IMG/VR virus record: IMGVR_UViG_3300025669_000205
Span: 1-22,698 of that record
From: a virus
Direction: 5' to 3' (one strand)
Length of the DNA: 22,698 nucleotides
Shown: piece by piece, positions 8,548-19,363 of the stretch
Layout of the letters: every line of letters starts with the position of its first letter
Position numbering within the stretch: position 1 is the first letter of the stretch
Notes under the pieces: generated by a model
What the model saw: the letters and a program-made list of their open reading frames with translations, nothing else
Databases searched by the model: none
Told to the model about the DNA's origin: nothing
Program-made: the position numbers and the translations under genes

Positions 8548-8984
8548 ATGGTTGCGTTTATCCTCCACCGGCTCGGGAAATGCATAATTCCATTTGGATC
8601 CGTTATCTGTGGTCCCTTTGAAATCTGCGTCATTTCGAATCCCTTTATGCCTATTGTATCGTCCCAGAACTTATTTCTATGAAGCGTATCGACAATGGAT
8701 GCGTAAACACCCATCACATCGTCCCAAGTATAGGCTGAATATTCAACGCCACCGACGGCTGGCATCCATGGCTCAATCTGCAATATGATTTCATCCTGGA
8801 AAGCCTCCGAAGTCTTGCGGCCGGGTCCGGGCATGATATGAATGCTTATCGCCGGATATACAATATCCTGAATCGTTGAGACATGAGATCCGTAAATCCT
8901 CTGCCCTGTATATTCCAAGATCCGGCTTTCGGCCTTCAATAATGCGATGATTTTTTCTACCACTCTCGCGCGCGTGCTTGCCAT
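8544..8984 (-). CDS. Tail terminator / tail completion protein
   Basis: A 146-aa protein likely to cap the tail tube and join it to the head. It starts with a helix (RARVVEKIIALLKAESRILE), then YPAISIHIMPGPG, a strand-rich region EIILQIEPWMPA and a second helix (VMGVYASIVDTLHRNKFWDD), the layout usual for gpU/gp17/DUF3168-type terminators. It ends with a beta strand (HFPSRWRINATI). Gene order (after gp10-like, before the tail tube) is where a terminator belongs. The start overlaps the previous TAA (TAATG), and its TGA overlaps the ATG of the zinc finger gene (ATGA). The family is inferred from size, pattern and order. Confidence 0.68.
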   Translation of the reverse strand: MASTRARVVEKIIALLKAESRILEYTGQRIYGSHVSTIQDIVYPAISIHIMPGPGRKTSEAFQDEIILQIEPWMPAVGGVEYSAYTWDDVMGVYASIVDTLHRNKFWDDTIGIKGFEMTQISKGPQITDPNGIMHFPSRWRINATI

Positions 8985-9484
8985 TATAGCTTAACCTTCT
9001 TCCCGTTGAAATTGACGACTACGTTTTTAAGTGATCTTCCCAATAACTTTCTGGCTTCTCCCGCTTCTTCTTGGAGAGATCCATCAAGGAAATCACGAGG
9101 GATCATTCGAGAAGTCCCGAATATAACATGAACCGCGTGAGCCACGCCTTCAATCCCGACAAATGCTGAAGCCACCAGCTTCCCGCTTCGGATGCTTACC
9201 CGCTCAGTCCCGGAAAACTTCCCGGCCAGCATAACGCCTGATTGCGAATGAACTTGATATTCAGGATCATGAATATGCTGCGGGGATCGAGTCGCGTAAG
9301 GATGGCCCATATCTGCAAGTTGTTTCAGGCTATGATCTGACAGGGAAATATTAGCCTCCACCCTGTCATCGAGCAACTTCCTGACTTTCTCCATATCCTT
9401 ATTGACTTCACGGAGAAAACCCTTTGTGAACCTCACGATGTTTTGCGCGACAACCTTCGCGCTTCGATCGGTAATTCCAGCCAT
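8984..9484 (-). CDS. HK97 gp10-like neck/tail protein
   Basis: A 166-aa protein, start at the ATG at 9484 with AAGGTG 6 nt upstream; an in-frame GTG two codons earlier is less likely. The N-terminal helix (VVAQNIVRFTKGFLREVNKD), LDDRVEANISLSDHSLKQLA, and the later RSGKLVASAFVGIEGVAHAV followed by HVIFGTSRMIPRDFLDGSL give the usual HK97 gp10 outline: helix, beta-rich middle, then a G-T-S-R-M-I-P-R/F-L segment near the end. These proteins lie between head closure and tail terminator in siphoviruses and myoviruses. Its ATG overlaps the TAA of the GT2 gene by one base. Its TAA overlaps the next ATG the same way, so it resumes the structural order after the cassette. Confidence 0.78.
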   Translation of the reverse strand: MAGITDRSAKVVAQNIVRFTKGFLREVNKDMEKVRKLLDDRVEANISLSDHSLKQLADMGHPYATRSPQHIHDPEYQVHSQSGVMLAGKFSGTERVSIRSGKLVASAFVGIEGVAHAVHVIFGTSRMIPRDFLDGSLQEEAGEARKLLGRSLKNVVVNFNGKKVKL

Positions 9485-11907
9485 TAGCACACCTTTTTAA
9501 TATCAAAGTCGAACTTGTCCAGAACGCCTTTCACGTGCGCGACGCTCCCATTTCGCTCTTTTAATATCTTCGGCATTTGCCCAGCGCATATATTCAAATG
9601 TTTTTTGGCGATACTCAAATGCCGCCACGCGATATTCTGGTGCGCCCTCCAAAACGTAGGATCAAGTTTAAGGCAAAGCTCCATCATTTCCTCGGCCTTT
9701 ACAGGATCTCCGTCATTGAGATAATGCAGGGACATATTGAACGGCGCGCGAGGATCGGCATTCCCTGAAATTTCAAACTGCTTTTGGCTCATCCGATGAT
9801 ACCTGTCCACCTTTGAGCGAATGCCGTCCTTCTCTTTGAGATAGCCAAGATGGTAAATCTTGACCGGGGAATGAATCACGGTCGCTTGTCCGTTTTTCAC
9901 ACGTGAGGATATTGAATCCTCGAGGCTCTCATGGATCAAACCCGAATAGAAATGCTCGTCGATGTTACGATAGAGCCGCATCGATTCAGAGAAAGAAAAG
10001 AGATTGTCTTCCGGGGCCGGTCCTCTCGGCGCTTCGAGATAATTCACAACGCTGAAAAGCCATGCGTCGGCATCCTCCTGAATGAATCCGAAGACATTAG
10101 ACACCTCTGCAGACTTGAATCGTTCGTCGGCATCCATGCTTAGAATCCATTCATATCGGCACTTTGATTTCGCCCAGTTCCGCGCCTGCGAGAAATTAAG
10201 GATATCCCCATTCTCATCGCAATCAAATTTCTTTTCAAATACACGAACCGGCTTATAGACCAACTTGGCAAAGCGTTTTATTTCGGCCAGCGTGCGATCG
10301 GTGGATCCAGTATCTACGATCACAAATTCATCGACGGCCCTCTCGACATTAGTCAGCATATCGTATATGTGCCGGTCCTCATTCTTGCAAATCGTGACAA
10401 GAGAAACGCGGTTCGGTTCCCTGTACGTTTTAAGAACAACATTCCGATCGATCAAATGATGATAGTCTTCCGTTCCGACATCGGCCTTCACGGGGTGAGG
10501 ATCCGCGGCTCTGTAAAAATCGTACTTCTTCTGCCTCTGTTCCGGCGTGTCATAGCCTAAATGTTTAACCGCCACATTGAGCCAGCTTATATTCTCAGGT
10601 GCAATGATCGGAGAGCTTCCGCAATGATGGTTATAGATATTCCGGTTTTCCTTGATTTTCATCCCGGGCAATATCTTAAAGAATCGGTAATTCTGGAACT
10701 TCCCGAAGGTGCTGTCGGCCCGGAACTTCTCCGTTCCATCCTTATCAACTTCCCAAATCGTGCGCCAGTTGCACCAATACGCAAAGATTTGCGGGTTTGG
10801 ATTACGCATCAGGGACGGGGCAATCTCCGCGAACTTCTTCTCATACACCTCATCACCGTCCACGCTTATCACCCAATCAGCCTCGCGTTCAATCGCCTTT
10901 TGAAGTAACCAGTTCCGCTCGGCCTGTTCGTTGAATGGGTGGTCCGGCTCCGTCCACTCTTCCCATAGCGTGACTTTCGGAAAAGACAAGGCAATCTCTT
11001 TCGTGCGGTCCTGAGAGCGTGCAAACAGACAAATGATTTCGTCCGCAAATTCGCTTGTGCGTGCCAAGCTTTGCTCGATATATTGTTCACAGTTTGCAAT
11101 TCGATATACGGCAATTAATTTCTGTTTTTCTTTGGGCTTCCATTTTTCGTAAAAGCGCTCCTGATTCACTTTCCCGTTTTCCATGTATTTCGACATCTTC
11201 AAATCACCGCGCTTGAATGTCTGTTGACCGTCATGCCATACAAACGTCGAATGATCGATCGCAAGCTTCCATCCCTTGAGTCTCGCGCGCAGGGAGATAT
11301 CATTATCCTCAAAAGAATTACAAAAAACTTCGTCAAAGAGATACTCTTCGTCTTTCAGGAATTTTCGGTTAGCCATGATGCACCAGCCATAAAGCACGCC
11401 AGTCTCATAAAATTCATCTCTGTGATTGTTCCCCCAAAGGATTGCGGCGCCATCAAGGTCGAGTTTTTGGGAAGCTTTATTATTCTTAACGATATCCCCG
11501 ACCGCTTGCCGGCCGTTCGAATTATTGGTGACAGGTCCGCACATAGCTATTTTTTCGTCGTTATCCATACATCGATCAAGACGACTGGCCCAATCCGGGG
11601 TGACGATCGTATCGGAATTCAGAAGGATGATTCGACGCCCCTCGGCTAATTCAACACCCTGGTTATTTGCCGGTCCGAAGTTCCGGTTATTTTCGTTCAG
11701 GATGCATTTCATGTTCGGATGAATCGTCGTCATATTTTGAGCATAGCCAGCGCTTCCGTCCGTTGAACCGTTATCGACAATGATAATCTCAAAATCTTTT
11801 GTGTGTTTAAATATAGACCGGACGCATCGCGTCAGCAATTCAGCCGTGTTCATATTTACAATAATGATGGAATATTTTAAGCCTTCTTTAATAGGCATCA
11901 GTTTCAT
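9484..11907 (-). CDS. Multidomain GT2 glycosyltransferase (three GT-A units plus TPR-like tail)
   Basis: An 807-aa cytoplasmic-type protein with three GT-A fold units in one chain. Unit 1 (about 10-255) has SIIIVNMNTAELL, VDNGSTDGS (44-52), LLNSDT (95-100, the DXD position) and FEDNDISLR (199-207). Unit 2 (about 260-495) is more divergent, with VDGDEVYEKK at 349-358. Unit 3 (about 500-700) has VTICKNED, VDTGSTDRT (531-539) and MDADER (591-596). The last ~90 residues (PFNMSLHYLNDGDPVKAEEM onward) look like a TPR repeat. The SD AAGGGGA lies about 8 nt before the ATG, which overlaps the radical SAM stop (ATGA). The stop TAA overlaps the next gene's ATG (TAATG). Three units suggest a polymerising or sequential transferase. 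Donor and acceptor are unknown. Confidence 0.87.
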   Translation of the reverse strand: MKLMPIKEGLKYSIIIVNMNTAELLTRCVRSIFKHTKDFEIIIVDNGSTDGSAGYAQNMTTIHPNMKCILNENNRNFGPANNQGVELAEGRRIILLNSDTIVTPDWASRLDRCMDNDEKIAMCGPVTNNSNGRQAVGDIVKNNKASQKLDLDGAAILWGNNHRDEFYETGVLYGWCIMANRKFLKDEEYLFDEVFCNSFEDNDISLRARLKGWKLAIDHSTFVWHDGQQTFKRGDLKMSKYMENGKVNQERFYEKWKPKEKQKLIAVYRIANCEQYIEQSLARTSEFADEIICLFARSQDRTKEIALSFPKVTLWEEWTEPDHPFNEQAERNWLLQKAIEREADWVISVDGDEVYEKKFAEIAPSLMRNPNPQIFAYWCNWRTIWEVDKDGTEKFRADSTFGKFQNYRFFKILPGMKIKENRNIYNHHCGSSPIIAPENISWLNVAVKHLGYDTPEQRQKKYDFYRAADPHPVKADVGTEDYHHLIDRNVVLKTYREPNRVSLVTICKNEDRHIYDMLTNVERAVDEFVIVDTGSTDRTLAEIKRFAKLVYKPVRVFEKKFDCDENGDILNFSQARNWAKSKCRYEWILSMDADERFKSAEVSNVFGFIQEDADAWLFSVVNYLEAPRGPAPEDNLFSFSESMRLYRNIDEHFYSGLIHESLEDSISSRVKNGQATVIHSPVKIYHLGYLKEKDGIRSKVDRYHRMSQKQFEISGNADPRAPFNMSLHYLNDGDPVKAEEMMELCLKLDPTFWRAHQNIAWRHLSIAKKHLNICAGQMPKILKERNGSVAHVKGVLDKFDFDIKKVC

Positions 11908-12848
11908 TTTTGATTCCCCTTTTGTAGTGAATTATAAGCGGTTGAAGTTCTGTTCACGCGGTCCTTGACGTCCTTATACGCAGAACTGTATATCAAGGCT
12001 TCCTCTTTGTTGCAATTCCTTTGGTCGCAATTCTCACAGAGCAGACCCGCCCCGGCAAACATTCCGGTCTTGTGTCTCGTTGCGATCCTACGGTATTCGG
12101 GCGAGCTAAATATCTCGTCCAGATTTTGTGTTTTCAAATCACCGACTGTGAGTTTGCCATCATAATCAAAGCAGCACAGAATCACGGTTCCATCGACTTG
12201 AACCTGCAGAGGCCCATCAAAAACACGGCCGCAGGTTCTTTCTTGAGACCCTTGAATCCTTCGGTGTTTAAATAGATCACCCCAGTTATGGACAAGCCAC
12301 ACTTCCACAAGATCGGCTTTGCCTTCCCATAGCGCCCTCCAAGCCCAAGCATTCGCAACATTGACGCCCGGGACCGCGACGTGAGTCAACAGTACCTTTG
12401 TCGTCTTTCTAAGAGGAAAGATCGCATCGAGATAGCCCTTCACCTTTGCGAATTGGGATCCATCAACGCCATGCATCTTTGCGTAGTCTTCCGCGTTCTG
12501 TCCGTGAAAACTCACCCGGACGGAATGAAGCCCCGCGGCCTGAAGCTCGATGAACTTCTCGGGAGTCAATTTATCACCATTCGTAATCAAGAGAGGGTCG
12601 AGTCCTTTCGCGCGCGCGTACTTCACCTTTTCCTCTAAAGATACGTCAAGCAATGATTCACCAAGACCCGCGAACGTAAGGGATTTATATTGCGATGTTT
12701 CGGCAAGGATTTTATCAAGCAAAAATTTGAAGAGATTCAGGGACATCGTTTCCTTTGGTCGGCACAATTCCCCATTCATGCAGATAATGCATTTGTACTG
12801 GCAGAAGGTTGTTACTTCGAATCGCATTTCGGAATTCTCGGGAATCAT
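11904..12848 (-). CDS. Radical SAM enzyme with SPASM-type C-terminal cluster domain
   Basis: A 314-aa iron-sulfur enzyme expected to cleave S-adenosylmethionine to a radical. The signature C-x3-C-x2-C is C16, C20, C23 (FCQYKCIIC), followed by GLGESLLD (61-68), matching the SAM-binding GGE region. The C-terminal part carries further cysteines at C206, C225, C226, C271, C274 and C279 (RTCGRVF, VILCCFDYDG, CENCDQRNC), the pattern of SPASM auxiliary clusters, with VGDLKTQNLDEIF between them as in many SPASM proteins. The SD AAAGGAG is 8 nt before ATG. ATGA overlaps on both sides couple it to the DUF115-like gene and the GT2 gene. Possible roles are peptide/protein modification or sugar chemistry on the cassette's product. 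No small precursor peptide gene was found next to it. Confidence 0.88.
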   Translation of the reverse strand: MIPENSEMRFEVTTFCQYKCIICMNGELCRPKETMSLNLFKFLLDKILAETSQYKSLTFAGLGESLLDVSLEEKVKYARAKGLDPLLITNGDKLTPEKFIELQAAGLHSVRVSFHGQNAEDYAKMHGVDGSQFAKVKGYLDAIFPLRKTTKVLLTHVAVPGVNVANAWAWRALWEGKADLVEVWLVHNWGDLFKHRRIQGSQERTCGRVFDGPLQVQVDGTVILCCFDYDGKLTVGDLKTQNLDEIFSSPEYRRIATRHKTGMFAGAGLLCENCDQRNCNKEEALIYSSAYKDVKDRVNRTSTAYNSLQKGNQK

Positions 12849-13552
12849 GTGGGAGGCTCCTTTGTGAATTTATGGCCTTCAAGGTTGAGATTGATGAACG
12901 GATTGAGAGAATAAATATCGCATCCGTATACCTGCTTGATCTTTTTCTTTAATGCAATGGTTTGCTTTTCTACATCTCGAAACCATTTCTTGTAATAATC
13001 ATCACATGCTTTTTTAGAGCCGTGAAACTTCAAAAGGTTTTCAGGGTATGTTTCTGCCGCCATTGCCCCGCGATCAACATATCCGCAACCATCCAAATAG
13101 CCACAGTCGTGACCGACCATGATTATATTTTTCGCTCCCATGTACGCGGCAAGATGGATCCCGCTTGTGATCGTCGAATAGCTGACAAAGATATCATCGT
13201 CTTGTCCAACGGCTTCAAGGTTCTTATCGAAATCATTCTCTATATCGCCATGCCTTACCCCTTTATGGCCGAAGACATAAGCTGCGCCCGAACCGTTTAA
13301 GCCATTCTCGATGTCACCATCCTTGTACTTGGACATGATGACGGTTTGTTTCGCTTCGATTGCGGCTTTAATGTAATCGGTATGCTTGGACATGAGATAG
13401 GTCAATTCAAATCTGTAATAGATTCGGTTGATCCCTATGGCAATTTTGTTCTTAAAGAAATCAGGTTCGATCCAAACTGCGGAAGCCCCGGAGCCAACCA
13501 CCCAAATGTCTTGCCCCTTAAATTTGTCTTTTAGCTCGGCTGTGTTTCTCAT
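12845..13552 (-). CDS. DUF115/MptE-like Rossmann protein of the modification cassette
   Basis: A 235-aa protein with two typical stretches: GQDIWVVGSGASAVWIEPDF (residues 13-32), a glycine-rich nucleotide-binding start, and SYSTITSGIHLAAYMGAKNI followed by IMVGHDCGY (124-152). This arrangement occurs in DUF115/MAF-flagellin and 6-hydroxymethylpterin-kinase-like proteins and in phage-borne relatives beside glycosyltransferases; some related folds are sialyl- or pseudaminyl-transferases. The role is therefore probably sugar transfer or glycan-linked, but the reaction is not determined by sequence. The ATG directly follows the TAA of the neck gene (AGGGA upstream), and its TGA overlaps the next ATG (ATGA), so it is in the same translation unit as the radical SAM gene. 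Confidence 0.62.
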   Translation of the reverse strand: MRNTAELKDKFKGQDIWVVGSGASAVWIEPDFFKNKIAIGINRIYYRFELTYLMSKHTDYIKAAIEAKQTVIMSKYKDGDIENGLNGSGAAYVFGHKGVRHGDIENDFDKNLEAVGQDDDIFVSYSTITSGIHLAAYMGAKNIIMVGHDCGYLDGCGYVDRGAMAAETYPENLLKFHGSKKACDDYYKKWFRDVEKQTIALKKKIKQVYGCDIYSLNPFINLNLEGHKFTKEPPT

Positions 13553-13927
13553 TTATCCCTGACGCTCCACAAGCGCCTCTACGTGATGAGAGTTTCCATC
13601 GAAATCCATAATCGTCGTGATTTCCATTATGCGCCCAAACGTAAGACCGCTTATGCCCGAGATCGGATAAACGAGATCCCCGGGCTGAAGGTCGGCCGTG
13701 TAAAGCGCAAACATAAAATAATCAACCTTAGTCATCTGTCCGGGCGCTCGCCAAATATAACCCTTCGGATTGAAATCAAGATAAACCTCGAGGCTTGGAT
13801 TAACCTCGGTTTCACTTGATGCGCGCCTCTGCCCCATGGCGGTCGTTGAGAATCCACCTCGGCGTCCGATCTTTACCCTCTGATTCAGGATCAAAGCATA
13901 TTCGTCATCATGGTCCTGTTGATTCAT
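13553..13927 (-). CDS. Probable head-closure / head-tail adaptor protein
   Basis: A 124-aa protein taken from the ATG at 13927, which has GAGAGGG about 9 nt upstream; a longer frame would overlap the glycosyltransferase further. The sequence is beta-rich: RVKIGRRGGFSTTAMGQRRA, YLDFNPKGYIWRAP, then DLQPGDLVYPISGISGLTFG and RIMEITTIMDF. The phrase LQPGDLVYPI with a following strand-rich segment resembles head-closure or adaptor proteins that seal the connector. It also sits where such a gene is expected, one structural step after the connector and before the gp10-like gene. It is separated from both by modification genes. No enzyme motif is visible, which argues against it being part of the sugar cassette. 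The family assignment is an inference. Confidence 0.5.
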   Translation of the reverse strand: MNQQDHDDEYALILNQRVKIGRRGGFSTTAMGQRRASSETEVNPSLEVYLDFNPKGYIWRAPGQMTKVDYFMFALYTADLQPGDLVYPISGISGLTFGRIMEITTIMDFDGNSHHVEALVERQG

Positions 13928-15020
13928 TTTGATTAGCCCTCTCTGGATAGAATTGCCGGAAAAGCTCGGCATATAATTTCTGGTATTTATCAGACATGAT
14001 CGATGCCGTGAAATAGTTCAAGGCTGTTTCCTGTCCAGTAACCGCAAGATTGTGCCTCAAAGCCGGCTGGATATATAAATAAATGATCGCCTCGGCCAGC
14101 GCAGATATCGTCGGTTGAGTAAGTTGAGCGGCGCCAAGAAGAAGTTCCTTCGTGACAGGGTTTTCCCACGTAATAACCGGGATCTTGCAGGTCATGGCCT
14201 CAAGATACACAAGCCCGAAACCTTCCGTCGGGGAAGGGTAAAGGAAAACGTCTAACGCCTCATACACCCAGCCGACCTCTTCAAGAGCCGGGATAAAATG
14301 CACGTTCGAAAGCGGGAGACTGGCGGCCATTATTTTGACCTTGGAGAGATAGCCCTTTGAATATTCGGCTTCATCCCCGGTTATGATGATATGCATATCT
14401 CTGATCAGATTGCTATCCTGTGCCTTCTTACAAGCCACAAGGAACGCCTCAAGGCATTTATCATGGCCTATGCGCCCAACGCGCCCAACAACGAAAGCGT
14501 CGTCAGGTATCCCAAGATGCTGTTTACACGACACATATCCAGACTCGATCATAACAGGGGCATGGCCTTCGGATGGATAGCTTTCGTGCTTCACGGTCCA
14601 TTCCGGGTACCTCAAGAGCCTTTCGACATCAATCCCGTTGTGGATGGTCCGGCATTTCCTGTTCTGTTTCGTGACTTGATTGCTCACGCCCACGCGCGCG
14701 AAGACATGATCGTCCCGGACAACGGACACGACTGGGGAATGAATTGTCTCGATCGTGAGATATTCGCCACGGACCGCATCAGCAAGCCGACTAAGATTGC
14801 CGCCGGTATGTATGTGGATAATATCGGCCTCGATGTCGTGTGTGGCCTTACCATCGTCAACGAACACCTTTGCGCCAGCGTCTTCGAGAGGCTTACGCAT
14901 TGGCCCATCCTTGTATGAATAGACAGTGTATTCGTTATTCGGATCATTCTTTATGATGCCATGGACAACGCGCTCGGCGCCACCCATTGCAAGCTGATTT
15001 AGCTCGTGTAGGATTTTCAT
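13908..15020 (-). CDS. GT4-family glycosyltransferase (GT-B fold)
   Basis: This enzyme transfers a sugar from a nucleotide-sugar donor to an acceptor, with retention expected for GT4. The ATG at 15020 is chosen (370 aa) because GAAGGAG lies 8 nt upstream; an ATG 33 nt earlier at 15053 has no SD. The N-terminal half holds MGGAERVVHG (residues 12-21), the usual acceptor-side motif, and HIHTGGN near 69. The donor-binding half starts with FVVGRVGRIGHDK (176-188), and the nucleotide-sugar motif PSPTEGFGLVYLEAM at 262-275 contains the E-x7-E glutamates. No membrane segment is seen, so it is probably cytoplasmic. Its start overlaps the stop of the methyltransferase extension and its end overlaps the following neck gene by 20 nt. 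Acceptor and sugar are unknown. Confidence 0.88.
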   Translation of the reverse strand: MKILHELNQLAMGGAERVVHGIIKNDPNNEYTVYSYKDGPMRKPLEDAGAKVFVDDGKATHDIEADIIHIHTGGNLSRLADAVRGEYLTIETIHSPVVSVVRDDHVFARVGVSNQVTKQNRKCRTIHNGIDVERLLRYPEWTVKHESYPSEGHAPVMIESGYVSCKQHLGIPDDAFVVGRVGRIGHDKCLEAFLVACKKAQDSNLIRDMHIIITGDEAEYSKGYLSKVKIMAASLPLSNVHFIPALEEVGWVYEALDVFLYPSPTEGFGLVYLEAMTCKIPVITWENPVTKELLLGAAQLTQPTISALAEAIIYLYIQPALRHNLAVTGQETALNYFTASIMSDKYQKLYAELFRQFYPERANQNESTGP

Positions 15021-15199
15021 TGTGCAATCTCCTTCGTTAAAATATACTGCCATAATTCGACTGGTTTATTTTCTAGGTTAATCTGACTTGAAACAAGACC
15101 GCTTTCGATCGTCCTGAAATGCTCGGAGCAGGCAACTTCAAACGCAGTTTTTGAGAAATAATACTGCTTGTCTGGATTCCATTCTTTATCATCGATCGA
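15017..15199 (-). pseudogene. In-frame extension of the methyltransferase after TGA, 60 codons, no start of its own
   Basis: Directly after the TGA at 15202-15200 the same frame continues for 60 sense codons and ends in TGA at 15019-15017. The translation begins SIDDKEWNPDKQYYFSKTAF and ends VELWQYILTKEIAQ. It has a protein-like, mixed composition. No ATG, GTG or TTG exists in this frame after the stop, so it cannot start conventionally. Its own stop overlaps the ATG of the next glycosyltransferase as ATGA, the same junction type used throughout this operon. This suggests it is, or recently was, the true 3' end of the upstream gene. It may be a pseudogenised C-terminus, a readthrough extension or a result of one wrong base. 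I do not recognise the fold. Confidence 0.55.
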
Positions 15200-15784
15200 T
15201 CACAACACCTCTTTCTTTGGTTCCTCGGCATCGTTAAACTTCAAAGCCCCGAATCCGCATTTTCCATGGAGGGGCAAATCACATTTTATCGGACCTTCTG
15301 GCTTGAATGACGTCCAGAACTTTTCCATATCATAATTCAAATAAACGTCATCGAATAAAACCAATGCGTTTTTATTCAATCGAGGTCGCCAATGATTGAA
15401 TTCTTGAAGCGCCCGGCCATTGTGGTTTGTGTCGATATAAAGCAGATCAATATTTGAAATCGGTTCAAACGGTGAGGCAACGCTATCGCCTGTCAAATAT
15501 TTAATATTTGAGCGTCTGCATTTTTCGAGGATTGCACTGGGGTTGTTGTCGATCGTAATGACTTTCCCGCCTGGGTTCCCCATCGCCATACACATTGAGG
15601 AAACGCCCTCGCAAGTCCCGAGTTCCACCATCAGGGAAGGGCACATCCTGTAACAGAACAAATAAAGGAATCGGTAATAAAGAGCTACCCGACAGGCATC
15701 AATCATTAGCCAGTCGAATAGTTTTACCTTTTCGGCCCGTTCACAGAAAGCCAAAAGGTCGTTTTCAGATAATTTTGGTAGCAT
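15200..15784 (-). CDS. Class I SAM methyltransferase (Methyltransf_24-like), frame interrupted by TGA
   Basis: This is a probable O- or N-methyltransferase acting on a small molecule or sugar. The start is taken at the ATG at 15784, because AGGAGG lies 7 nt before it but only 1 nt before the alternative ATG at 15790; this gives 194 aa. Features of the SAM-binding fold: LMVELGTCEGVSSM (motif I, near residue 50), VITIDNNPSAIL (acidic end of strand 2), IDLLYIDTNHNGRALQEF (motif IV region) and ALVLFDDV. The layout matches the Methyltransf_24 family often found in sugar-modification clusters. The TGA at 15202-15200 is followed in the same frame by 60 further sense codons up to 15017, so the gene may really be 255 codons with a nonsense codon, readthrough or a sequence error. 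It is the first member of the modification cassette after the connector. Confidence 0.75.
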   Translation of the reverse strand: MLPKLSENDLLAFCERAEKVKLFDWLMIDACRVALYYRFLYLFCYRMCPSLMVELGTCEGVSSMCMAMGNPGGKVITIDNNPSAILEKCRRSNIKYLTGDSVASPFEPISNIDLLYIDTNHNGRALQEFNHWRPRLNKNALVLFDDVYLNYDMEKFWTSFKPEGPIKCDLPLHGKCGFGALKFNDAEEPKKEVL

Positions 15785-15801
15785 CGTCATGCCTCCTGTT
15801 T

Positions 15802-16194
15802 TTAAAGTTCATCCCGCAATGCTTCACGGTCAATAAATTCTCTTTCACCAGCTCCATCAAAAGGACGGTCAACTGGTCCGAAGGTTTGTTCCCCAACGGC
15901 TTCCCATGGAACAACGCCACCCTCTAGGATTGCTTTTGCCTGGGCGCGTAATTCCCTTGCGATCTGAGTTGTGTCTTCGGAGTATTTGCCGGCCTGTTTC
16001 TTTTTAGCGAGAAGCGCCTTGCTGTTTGCGAGGATAAGAAGAAGTCCGGCCGCTGCAGCCCTGACCTCGTTATCGTTCTGAGAAAGGATGGAAGAAATTT
16101 CTTCGTCTTCAAAGACGTATTGCGATGAATCCGTATCGGCTATCCATAACCGAGTCTTCCCGATATTATTCCCGAGATTATATGTAAAACTCAT
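15802..16194 (-). CDS. Head-tail connector (gp6/gp15-like head completion protein)
   Basis: A 130-aa protein likely to bind under the portal and start the neck. The N-terminal half reads TRLWIADTDSSQYVFEDEEI followed by SSILSQNDNEVRAAAAGLLL, which matches the usual connector pattern: an aspartate-containing loop, an acidic EEI helix, then an alanine-rich helix bundle (residues about 15-90). The second half, about 95-130, is polar and probably disordered. The start has an AAGGGGG SD site 6 nt upstream, immediately after the T-run of the terminator, so its translation depends on read-through transcripts or an unseen promoter. Gene order (capsid, then connector) supports the call. The methyltransferase gene starts 17 nt after its stop. 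Confidence 0.72.
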   Translation of the reverse strand: MSFTYNLGNNIGKTRLWIADTDSSQYVFEDEEISSILSQNDNEVRAAAAGLLLILANSKALLAKKKQAGKYSEDTTQIARELRAQAKAILEGGVVPWEAVGEQTFGPVDRPFDGAGEREFIDREALRDEL

Positions 16195-17806: not shown

Positions 17807-19363
17807 TTACTTCTTTTCTTCTTTCTTAATCCCAAGGCGCGCTTCAAGTCCTTCGGTGATCTTTTCCGCACCCTCTTCATTCCGGGTGTTGTCTTCACCG
17901 GCACCAATCTTCACACCGCCGACTTCTTTGAGGTATTTTAACTCTTCCTCAATAGCGGCCTTAACCGTTTCTTCCAATTTCGTGATGCTTTCGTATGACT
18001 TCTCACAAAGCCGAGTGATCATACGTTCGCGGGAACGAGCAGGGAGCTTTGAAGCTTCGACAAGGTCGCGCACTTTCACTGCTTCCTTGGCCTGAACTTC
18101 ACGGGCATCCGATTCGGCGATCTTCGTTTCAAGGGGCTTCACAGCCTCTTGAATTGCCTTTGTTTCCCGGATCTTATATTCTTTTTCCATATCTTCGCGC
18201 ACCCTTGCTTCGATAATTTTCACGAGGTCCGGGCGCTCGTTTATCATTTCGTGTAACGTCACAGTTTTTAACATAGTTTTTCCTTCCTCTCTTAGTCTAT
18301 TAGATTCTACAAGATTTAAAACTCGGCCTCGCGCACCAGCCTCCGTAACCCAGTCCGCGCTTCGAGGCGCGACAATTTGATCAATAATTTCCATTTTTTC
18401 GCCATCAATCATTCCCTCGCTCATGCGCCCGGAAGTGTTGATGCTGATTCCGACATGCTCGCGGAACACCTTATCACTTTCGAGAAGATCCCAGAAATCC
18501 TTTTGATGGACCGTAACCCATGCAATCAGCTTCCCGTTATCGTACCAGCTCTCGGTGATGGTCGAAATCCATTCCCTTAGAGAGCGTTCCGGCTTCTCCC
18601 GGTCCTCGCGGTCCGTCGGATGATCAAGGTACATTTTCAGGCCAGCAAATAATTCAGCTGCCTCTTGAATGGTTCGCCGCGGATAATGCCGACGCTTTCC
18701 AAAACTGGTCCCGGCCTCGATAAGAATAACCTTAATACGTTTCTCTGCCCGGTCGATATTCGCCTCTTTGAAGTCAACGGTACAACGATCGTCGATGTTG
18801 CAATTACCCTGATTTTTCTTTAGCAATGATTCGTTCAAGACGATGCCTTCCTTTGCCACAAATTTCATATCAACTTCATCGGGTTCTTGGAAGCTGAATA
18901 TTCCTTTATCGTCTTCCTCATAAATTACCTTAAAATACCTTCCGTCATAATCTGCGATGACGTGGCCAGGGAATATCCAAGCGATATAAAGATACTTATT
19001 CGTCGTATCAAATACGTTAGCCATCTCAAGCGCGCGCGAAAGGCGAAGGGCGATATCGGCAAACGATCCAAGCGGGGCATTCTCTTGCACATTGCGGAGG
19101 CTCTCGGAATATGAGTCGGAGTTCTTATCCATCCATTCCTTAACGCTTCCCTCGCTGAACTTATTACGGTCAAACAGGAACTCACTAACGACCATCTGGC
19201 CGTCGCTGGTCTTCCCAAGGCGCGCACGAATGCCACCTCCGAGAGCGATCATTCGTTCCGATCCGGATAGGATATCCTTGCTTTCCCGACGTACCACAAG
19301 GTTATTTGACACGATCTCGACCATGTCCTCAAATACATTCGCTTTAGAATTATGGTTTTTCAT
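17807..19363 (-). CDS. Prohead maturation protease with scaffold-like C-terminus
   Basis: This protein probably cleaves itself and head proteins during capsid maturation and also serves as scaffold. With the ATG at 19363 (GAGGTG SD 7 nt upstream; a TTG two codons earlier has worse spacing) it is 518 aa. Residues about 45-170 form an N-terminal domain with FLFDRNKFSEGSVKEWMDKN, a pattern common in phage protease-associated proteins. Residues about 208-350 match phage prohead proteases: LIEAGTSFGKRRHYP, then LDHPTDRED with likely catalytic His248, then GISINTSG with likely Ser307, and RSADWVTEAGARGRVLNL. The last ~150 residues are Lys/Glu-rich and predicted helical (coiled-coil scaffold type). 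Position between portal and decoration/capsid genes agrees. The catalytic residues are inferred by comparison with assemblin-like and related phage proteases. Confidence 0.85.
   Translation of the reverse strand: MKNHNSKANVFEDMVEIVSNNLVVRRESKDILSGSERMIALGGGIRARLGKTSDGQMVVSEFLFDRNKFSEGSVKEWMDKNSDSYSESLRNVQENAPLGSFADIALRLSRALEMANVFDTTNKYLYIAWIFPGHVIADYDGRYFKVIYEEDDKGIFSFQEPDEVDMKFVAKEGIVLNESLLKKNQGNCNIDDRCTVDFKEANIDRAEKRIKVILIEAGTSFGKRRHYPRRTIQEAAELFAGLKMYLDHPTDREDREKPERSLREWISTITESWYDNGKLIAWVTVHQKDFWDLLESDKVFREHVGISINTSGRMSEGMIDGEKMEIIDQIVAPRSADWVTEAGARGRVLNLVESNRLREEGKTMLKTVTLHEMINERPDLVKIIEARVREDMEKEYKIRETKAIQEAVKPLETKIAESDAREVQAKEAVKVRDLVEASKLPARSRERMITRLCEKSYESITKLEETVKAAIEEELKYLKEVGGVKIGAGEDNTRNEEGAEKITEGLEARLGIKKEEKK

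Follow-up and report, generated by a model that had tools for sequence, protein, structure and literature searches.

To our knowledge, glycosylation of phage virions is known experimentally mainly from mycobacteriophages. In Che8, Corndog, and Myrna, capsid and tail tube proteins are glycosylated by the phages' own enzymes, according to the account of Freeman 2023 given in PMC12363180. For pelagimyophages, a host-surface role has been proposed for their glycosyltransferases, and their variable regions also hold radical S-adenosylmethionine (SAM) cassettes (PMC7029224). Serotype conversion of the GtrABC type, a third reference system, employs a flippase and a polyprenyl-phosphate glycosyltransferase with membrane spans. 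Here, the linear virus record IMGVR_UViG_3300025669_000205, a 22,698-base fragment of an uncultured siphovirus (referred to in its entirety as the window), was analyzed with respect to a cassette of glycosyltransferase, methyltransferase, DUF115-like and radical SAM genes that is embedded among its neck genes.

As with the mycobacteriophage enzymes acting on capsid and tail tube proteins, the cassette is phage-encoded and linked to structural genes; it differs in having a GT4 and a triple GT2 glycosyltransferase (GT2x3) fixed around one neck gene, together with swappable decoration that includes a DUF115 and radical SAM pair. The hypervariable regions of pelagimyophages, likewise uncultured aquatic phages, carry similar enzyme classes near structural genes (PMC7029224), but these form large, variable islands close to tail-fibre genes, whereas the core described here is fixed in place and inherited together with siphovirus neck genes. 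The membrane-spanning proteins of GtrABC-type conversion have no clear counterpart among the cassette proteins. We consider it moderately probable that the cassette directs cytosolic glycosylation of at least one virion protein through a conserved core of enzymes and exchangeable decorating ones.

Organization of the cassette

The genes of the cassette and its flanks are as follows, in the direction of transcription:

15802..16194, minus strand: connector-like neck gene, upstream flank (phrog_18316, 1.9e-8; phrog_1732, 1.6e-6)
15200..15790, minus strand: Methyltransf_24 O-methyltransferase, decoration in slot 1 (PF13578, 2.3e-14)
15018..15199, minus strand: orfX, open frame of 60 codons with no ATG, GTG or TTG start (from sequence and junction)
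13908..15020, minus strand: GT4 glycosyltransferase, core (PF00534, 1e-20; start at 15020 preferred over 15053)
13553..13972, minus strand: putative head-closure/neck protein, between the two core glycosyltransferases (position; C-terminal region conserved in relatives)
12845..13552, minus strand: DUF115/MptE-like protein, candidate sugar (nonulosonic-acid-type) transferase, decoration pair in slot 2 (PF01973)
11904..12848, minus strand: radical SAM enzyme with one-cluster SPASM/twitch-like domain, decoration pair in slot 2 (PF04055, PF13186)
9484..11907, minus strand: GT2x3 with tetratricopeptide repeat (TPR)-like tail, core (three PF00535 stretches)
8984..9490, minus strand: gp10-like tail completion/Neck1 gene, downstream flank (relatives match phrog_5, up to 5.6e-6)

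The five enzymes, all encoded on the minus strand, lie where the original prediction had placed them, inside the late structural operon from the connector to the gp10-like neck gene; the TerL, portal, decoration, major capsid protein (MCP), tail tube, tape measure, and Dit genes of the window are on the same strand. Four of the five predicted domain assignments were confirmed by Pfam, while the DUF115 assignment fell below the cut-off for the window protein considered by itself and was recovered in that all four phage homologs match PF01973. The connector occupies the same place in all relatives, and its PHROG matches are all of unknown function. For the gp10-like gene, the assignment is backed by relatives matching phrog_5, "tail completion or Neck1". 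The head-closure candidate is assigned from its position, and no family matched it in Pfam or PHROG searches. It comprises ~120-140 residues in the window (13553-13972) and in the relative L046, and ~200 residues, including an additional N-terminal portion, in most other relatives (L006:8119-8757, L028:9374-9979, L048:5052-5672).

The genes are as tightly packed as had been predicted, but the junctions are not mostly ATGA: only three are of this type (orfX-GT4, DUF115-radical SAM, and radical SAM-GT2), the remaining spacings being +11, 0, 0, -65 (about -20 if a second start is used), and -7. GT4 translation probably starts at 15020, since a strong ribosome-binding site is found there; the methyltransferase stop codon is 179 bases from this start, so that these two genes do not touch. 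Nor is the head-closure gene the sole interruption among the enzymes, because the gap between methyltransferase and GT4 also contains orfX. This frame of ~60 codons continues the methyltransferase reading frame directly 3' of its TGA and terminates in the ATGA that starts GT4. Its sequence is identical in two other contigs that are near-identical to the window; no homolog was seen in the fetched loci of other relatives, and no Pfam family matched. It could represent read-through, the remnant of a gene, or a gene whose start is non-standard. A promoter scan scored 1.5 standard deviations above shuffled sequences, and a terminator scan gave no excess.

A conserved core with exchangeable decoration

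Scans of IMG/VR yielded seven divergent relatives in addition to the two near-identical contigs. Their gene orders, from the connector side, are given below (MT24, Methyltransf_24; rSAM, radical SAM enzyme; closure, head-closure candidate):

Window: MT24-orfX-GT4-closure-DUF115-rSAM-GT2x3
L006: MT24-GT4-closure-MT24'-DUF115-rSAM-GT2 (contig end)
L046: DUF115-rSAM-MT24-GT4-closure-GT2x3
L047: DUF115-rSAM-MT24-GT4 (contig end)
L048: MT11-MT24-GT4-closure-GT2x3
L028: pyruvyltransferase-GT4-closure-GT2x3
L030: two methyltransferases-GT4-closure-GT2 (contig end)
L052: MT24-MT11-GT4-unknown-closure-GT2x3

All eight phages have GT4 (37-57% identity to the window copy), and GT2x3, or at least the start of it, occurs in each of the seven contigs that extend that far; the two are always found on either side of the same putative head-closure gene. 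Recurrence of the same core in seven phages at this level of divergence indicates that the cassette is more than a chance assembly. The predicted association of a glycan-building set with neck genes was thus borne out, and its core does travel together; a single five-gene pathway was not, since the methyltransferase and the DUF115-radical SAM pair are exchangeable. The variable enzymes comprise Methyltransf_24, other methyltransferases, a pyruvyltransferase, and this pair, whose two genes are adjacent or overlapping each time and occupy either of two slots. Both are present in four phages and both absent from the other four (Fisher p 0.029), leaving half of the group with no radical SAM gene.

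The universality of the core is partly a matter of construction, because most relatives were found with cassette enzymes as queries: L006 with the radical SAM enzyme, L028, L030, and L052 with GT2, and L046 and L047 with GT4. An MCP query recovered L006, L028, and L030 again, with L048 as a new member; every relative that it retrieved at 36% identity or more carries the core, and the next (L035, 32% identity) lacks cassette genes at E<=1e-3. Among the isolated phages searched, there was no close radical SAM, DUF115, GT4 or GT2x3 homolog. One further locus, L016 (Desulfatitalea), was considered as a second phage cassette and rejected, since its EF-P and SpoU neighbors make a host chromosome more likely.

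Co-inheritance of the core with virion genes was assessed from pairwise distance matrices over six to eight phages, a small sample. GT4 and GT2 distances correlated with those of MCP, the connector, and the gene at 17807 (r 0.69-0.87, p 0.002-0.013 overall), with values of r 0.69 and p 0.012 for MCP-GT4, r 0.87 and p 0.013 for MCP-GT2, r 0.82 for connector-GT4, and r 0.86 for GT4 and the 17807 gene (p178). Virion genes correlated with one another at r 0.62-0.78, while distances of the MT24 methyltransferase against virion genes gave r -0.07 or -0.16. Mean identities were 51.5% for GT2, 48.7% for GT4, 46.8% for MCP, 44.1% for the connector, and 44% for gp10. The core is co-inherited with virion genes, and these data fit a core that travels with the particle and a decoration that is mobile.

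Several further genes were observed in these and other records. The L048 record encodes a Sulfotransfer_2 protein in its replication-side region (L065:664-1182) that might sulfate a glycan. A gene for a nucleoside diphosphate (NDP)-sugar epimerase/4,6-dehydratase is located elsewhere in the L006 record (L023:433-1437) and may supply this phage with a sugar donor of its own. In an unrelated siphovirus (L053:1339-3783), a methyltransferase, a GT2, a second methyltransferase, and an Anp1-like glycosyltransferase lie with a tail-terminator-like gene on one side and a tail-tube-like gene on the other, which may reflect a separate insertion of similar type.

Glycosyltransferases, methyltransferase, and DUF115 protein

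GT2x3 of the window contains three GT2 stretches (PF00535, 4.3e-43), DxD-type motifs (DTGSTD and DADE), and TPR matches. Its first part resembles polysaccharide-type GT2 enzymes such as chondroitin synthase. For the third unit with its TPR-like tail, the best solved relative in three phages is GmaR (6.4e-16, 3e-10, and 5e-22), followed by SunS, a peptide S-glycosyltransferase, and related GT2 proteins. GmaR, the flagellin O-GlcNAc transferase of Listeria, has a glycosyltransferase domain followed by TPRs (PMC9638930), and the combination of a GT2 domain with TPR-like repeats is shared by GmaR, SunS/ThuS, and the phage unit. The third unit is accordingly classed, from these matches, as a GmaR/SunS-type GT2 catalytic domain with a TPR-like tail. 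Unlike GmaR, the phage protein has two additional GT2 units upstream, and the antirepressor function of GmaR is not expected of it. PDB matches of the methyltransferase are small O-methyltransferases.

The DUF115-like protein of the window scores 29.4 bits with PF01973, against a gathering score of 34.6, while all four phage members match this family (best 3e-9) and one also matches CST-I. A structure model had a predicted local distance difference test score (pLDDT) of 45 when built from two sequences and a borderline 57.6 when built from four. The borderline model gave Z scores of 7.0-7.6, below the trust limit of 8, with Mj HPPK of the MptE class (7.6), Cst-I (7.3), and CstII (7.1). The protein is a candidate member of the MptE/sialyltransferase class, as judged from a conserved sequence patch and weak fold matches; it differs from that class (PF01973; Maf, Cst sialyltransferase fold) in matching only part of the profile, the window protein being below the cut-off. 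Maf proteins belong to the DUF115 class. They are described as acting in cytoplasmic flagellin glycosylation (PMC4065374). The phage records showed no genes for nonulosonic acids.

The radical SAM enzyme and its relatives

The radical SAM enzyme of the window matches SPASM (3.5e-11) and Radical_SAM (8.8e-10) in Pfam, and the CX3CX2C motif of the superfamily is invariant in four phages (C16, C20, and C23). Of the seven conserved cysteines expected of a two-cluster SPASM domain, only C206, C225/C226, C271, and C274 are invariant in these phages, which suits a single auxiliary cluster. The best solved relatives are BtrN (5e-16), then GMAT synthase, BlsE, MoaA, and DesII; the substrates of BtrN, BlsE, and DesII are sugars or cyclitols. 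The aminocyclitol dehydrogenase BtrN likewise combines a radical SAM core with an auxiliary-cluster domain, but the phage enzyme is distant from BtrN, BlsE, and DesII in sequence and is matched over parts only.

By far the closest relatives (48-53% identity) are uncharacterized proteins from Omnitrophota glycan clusters, where their neighbors include FkbM methyltransferases, sugar aminotransferases, and glycosyltransferases. In the tree, the copies from the four phages cluster as a single clade (99/99) within a group shared with Omnitrophota (98/98), consistent with a single capture, the direction of which depends on the outgroup root. Strong matches occurred in 5 of 285 Omnitrophota genomes. 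GT2x3 had no match at E<=1e-60 in the same 285 genomes, in a search with no positive control. Omnitrophota were also considered as the host, as the radical SAM relatives suggest, and set aside in view of this GT2x3 result and of an MCP profile that found only one distant match in the 285 genomes. Of six Omnitrophota loci inspected, five encode, near or next to the radical SAM gene, a conserved protein not seen in the phages described here (L009:8412-9926, L010:6463-8328, L060:2650-4467, L059:5421-6830, and L061:1-964), two copies of which were scanned and matched no Pfam family. A defense-system reading was dropped because PADLOC matches mainly reflect generic radical SAM similarity to prokaryotic viperins.

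Proposed mechanism and alternatives

In the mechanism proposed here, the cassette would make a glycan in the cytosol of the infected cell and attach it to at least one virion protein during particle assembly. A structural protein of the phage, from the neck, tail tube or capsid, would be recognized by the third GT2 unit with its TPR-like tail and receive its first O-linked sugar there; GT4 and the two remaining GT2 units would lengthen the glycan, the O-methyltransferase would decorate it, the DUF115/MptE-like transferase would add a terminal sugar, and the radical SAM enzyme would oxidize or epimerize a sugar for this pair. A virion protein is favored as the target because no clear membrane span and no lipid-carrier step was found in the cassette, one unit is GmaR-like, Maf proteins provide a precedent, and the core is co-inherited with virion genes. 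None of the cassette proteins has a clear membrane segment, and none of their families matched a polyprenyl-phosphate sugar transferase, flippase or oligosaccharyltransferase.

Some observations weigh against this reading. The virion target is read from genes, and similarity to GmaR indicates a class, not a substrate; most relatives are fragments, several of them found by querying core enzymes; and host lipid-linked machinery could take over the products of soluble enzymes. In addition, the L052 record encodes a six-span membrane protein (L066:3094-4122) between the portal gene on one side and the 17807-like gene and MCP on the other, which has no Pfam match above the cut-off, possibly resembles an O-antigen polymerase/ligase by eye, and would suit a host-surface target.

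The original prediction had left virion and host surface side by side; the virion is the best, if unproven, reading. Modification of the host surface late in infection, blocking superinfection or freeing progeny from receptor-bearing debris, is unlikely but is the strongest competitor. It draws on the pelagimyophage precedent for glycosyltransferases with radical SAM cassettes (PMC7029224), the radical SAM relatives in bacterial polysaccharide clusters, the six-span protein of one relative, and the pyruvyltransferase and sulfotransferase of others; however, the cassette has no membrane-bound steps, its core is co-inherited with virion genes and does not move as a moron, and the C-terminal unit of GT2x3 resembles protein glycosyltransferases. 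That the decorating genes are independent morons, with any virion role limited to GT4 and GT2x3, is less likely still: methyltransferase distances do not follow virion genes, and contents and slots differ among phages, but nearly all of these genes encode glycan- or methyl-transfer enzymes in two fixed slots beside the core, and DUF115 and radical SAM genes are never apart.

Hypermodification of phage DNA, with the glycosyltransferases and tailoring enzymes decorating a hydroxylated base, is improbable. Some viruses do encode glycosyltransferases that attach diverse glycans to DNA as hypermodifications, as PMC12619734 reports in citing Pyle 2024, but the cassette genes lie among neck, not replication, genes, and similarity to GmaR/SunS points to a protein acceptor. 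Tet_JBP (PF12851) had no match in the eight partial records or in any control genome, and this explanation keeps a small probability because no control worked in that search and it covered incomplete records. Least probable, by a narrow step, is the predicted "modified peptide" option, by which the radical SAM/SPASM enzyme and methyltransferase would mature a ribosomal peptide, possibly orfX, and the SunS-like unit would glycosylate it: SPASM domains are common in peptide maturases and a small frame is indeed present, but there is no conserved precursor, orfX is not found in the other fetched relatives, the SPASM-like domain keeps one-cluster cysteines only, half of the group has no radical SAM gene, and the option is disfavored because the radical SAM homologs lie in bacterial glycan clusters and the nearest solved homologs, BtrN, BlsE, and DesII among them, mostly act on sugars.

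Implications

Phage virion glycosylation is a known activity, in which the core-and-decoration design and the proposed radical SAM step are new. With the core inherited alongside virion genes and the decorating enzymes swapped, each phage lineage is proposed to display a different surface glycan. More tentatively, basic virion assembly in these phages may include protein glycosylation, with the GmaR-like glycosyltransferase and GT4 as core virion genes and interchangeable tailoring, including a sugar-modifying radical SAM enzyme acquired from a bacterial glycan cluster, yielding a lineage-specific virion glycan. The cassette enzymes are soluble and compact, and therefore suitable for assay, and the proposal gives a testable role to glycosyltransferase and radical SAM genes of environmental phages that are usually filed as host-surface or metabolic functions. 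If it is true, glycans on virions, like those on flagellin, can be intrinsic to the particle and quick to diversify.

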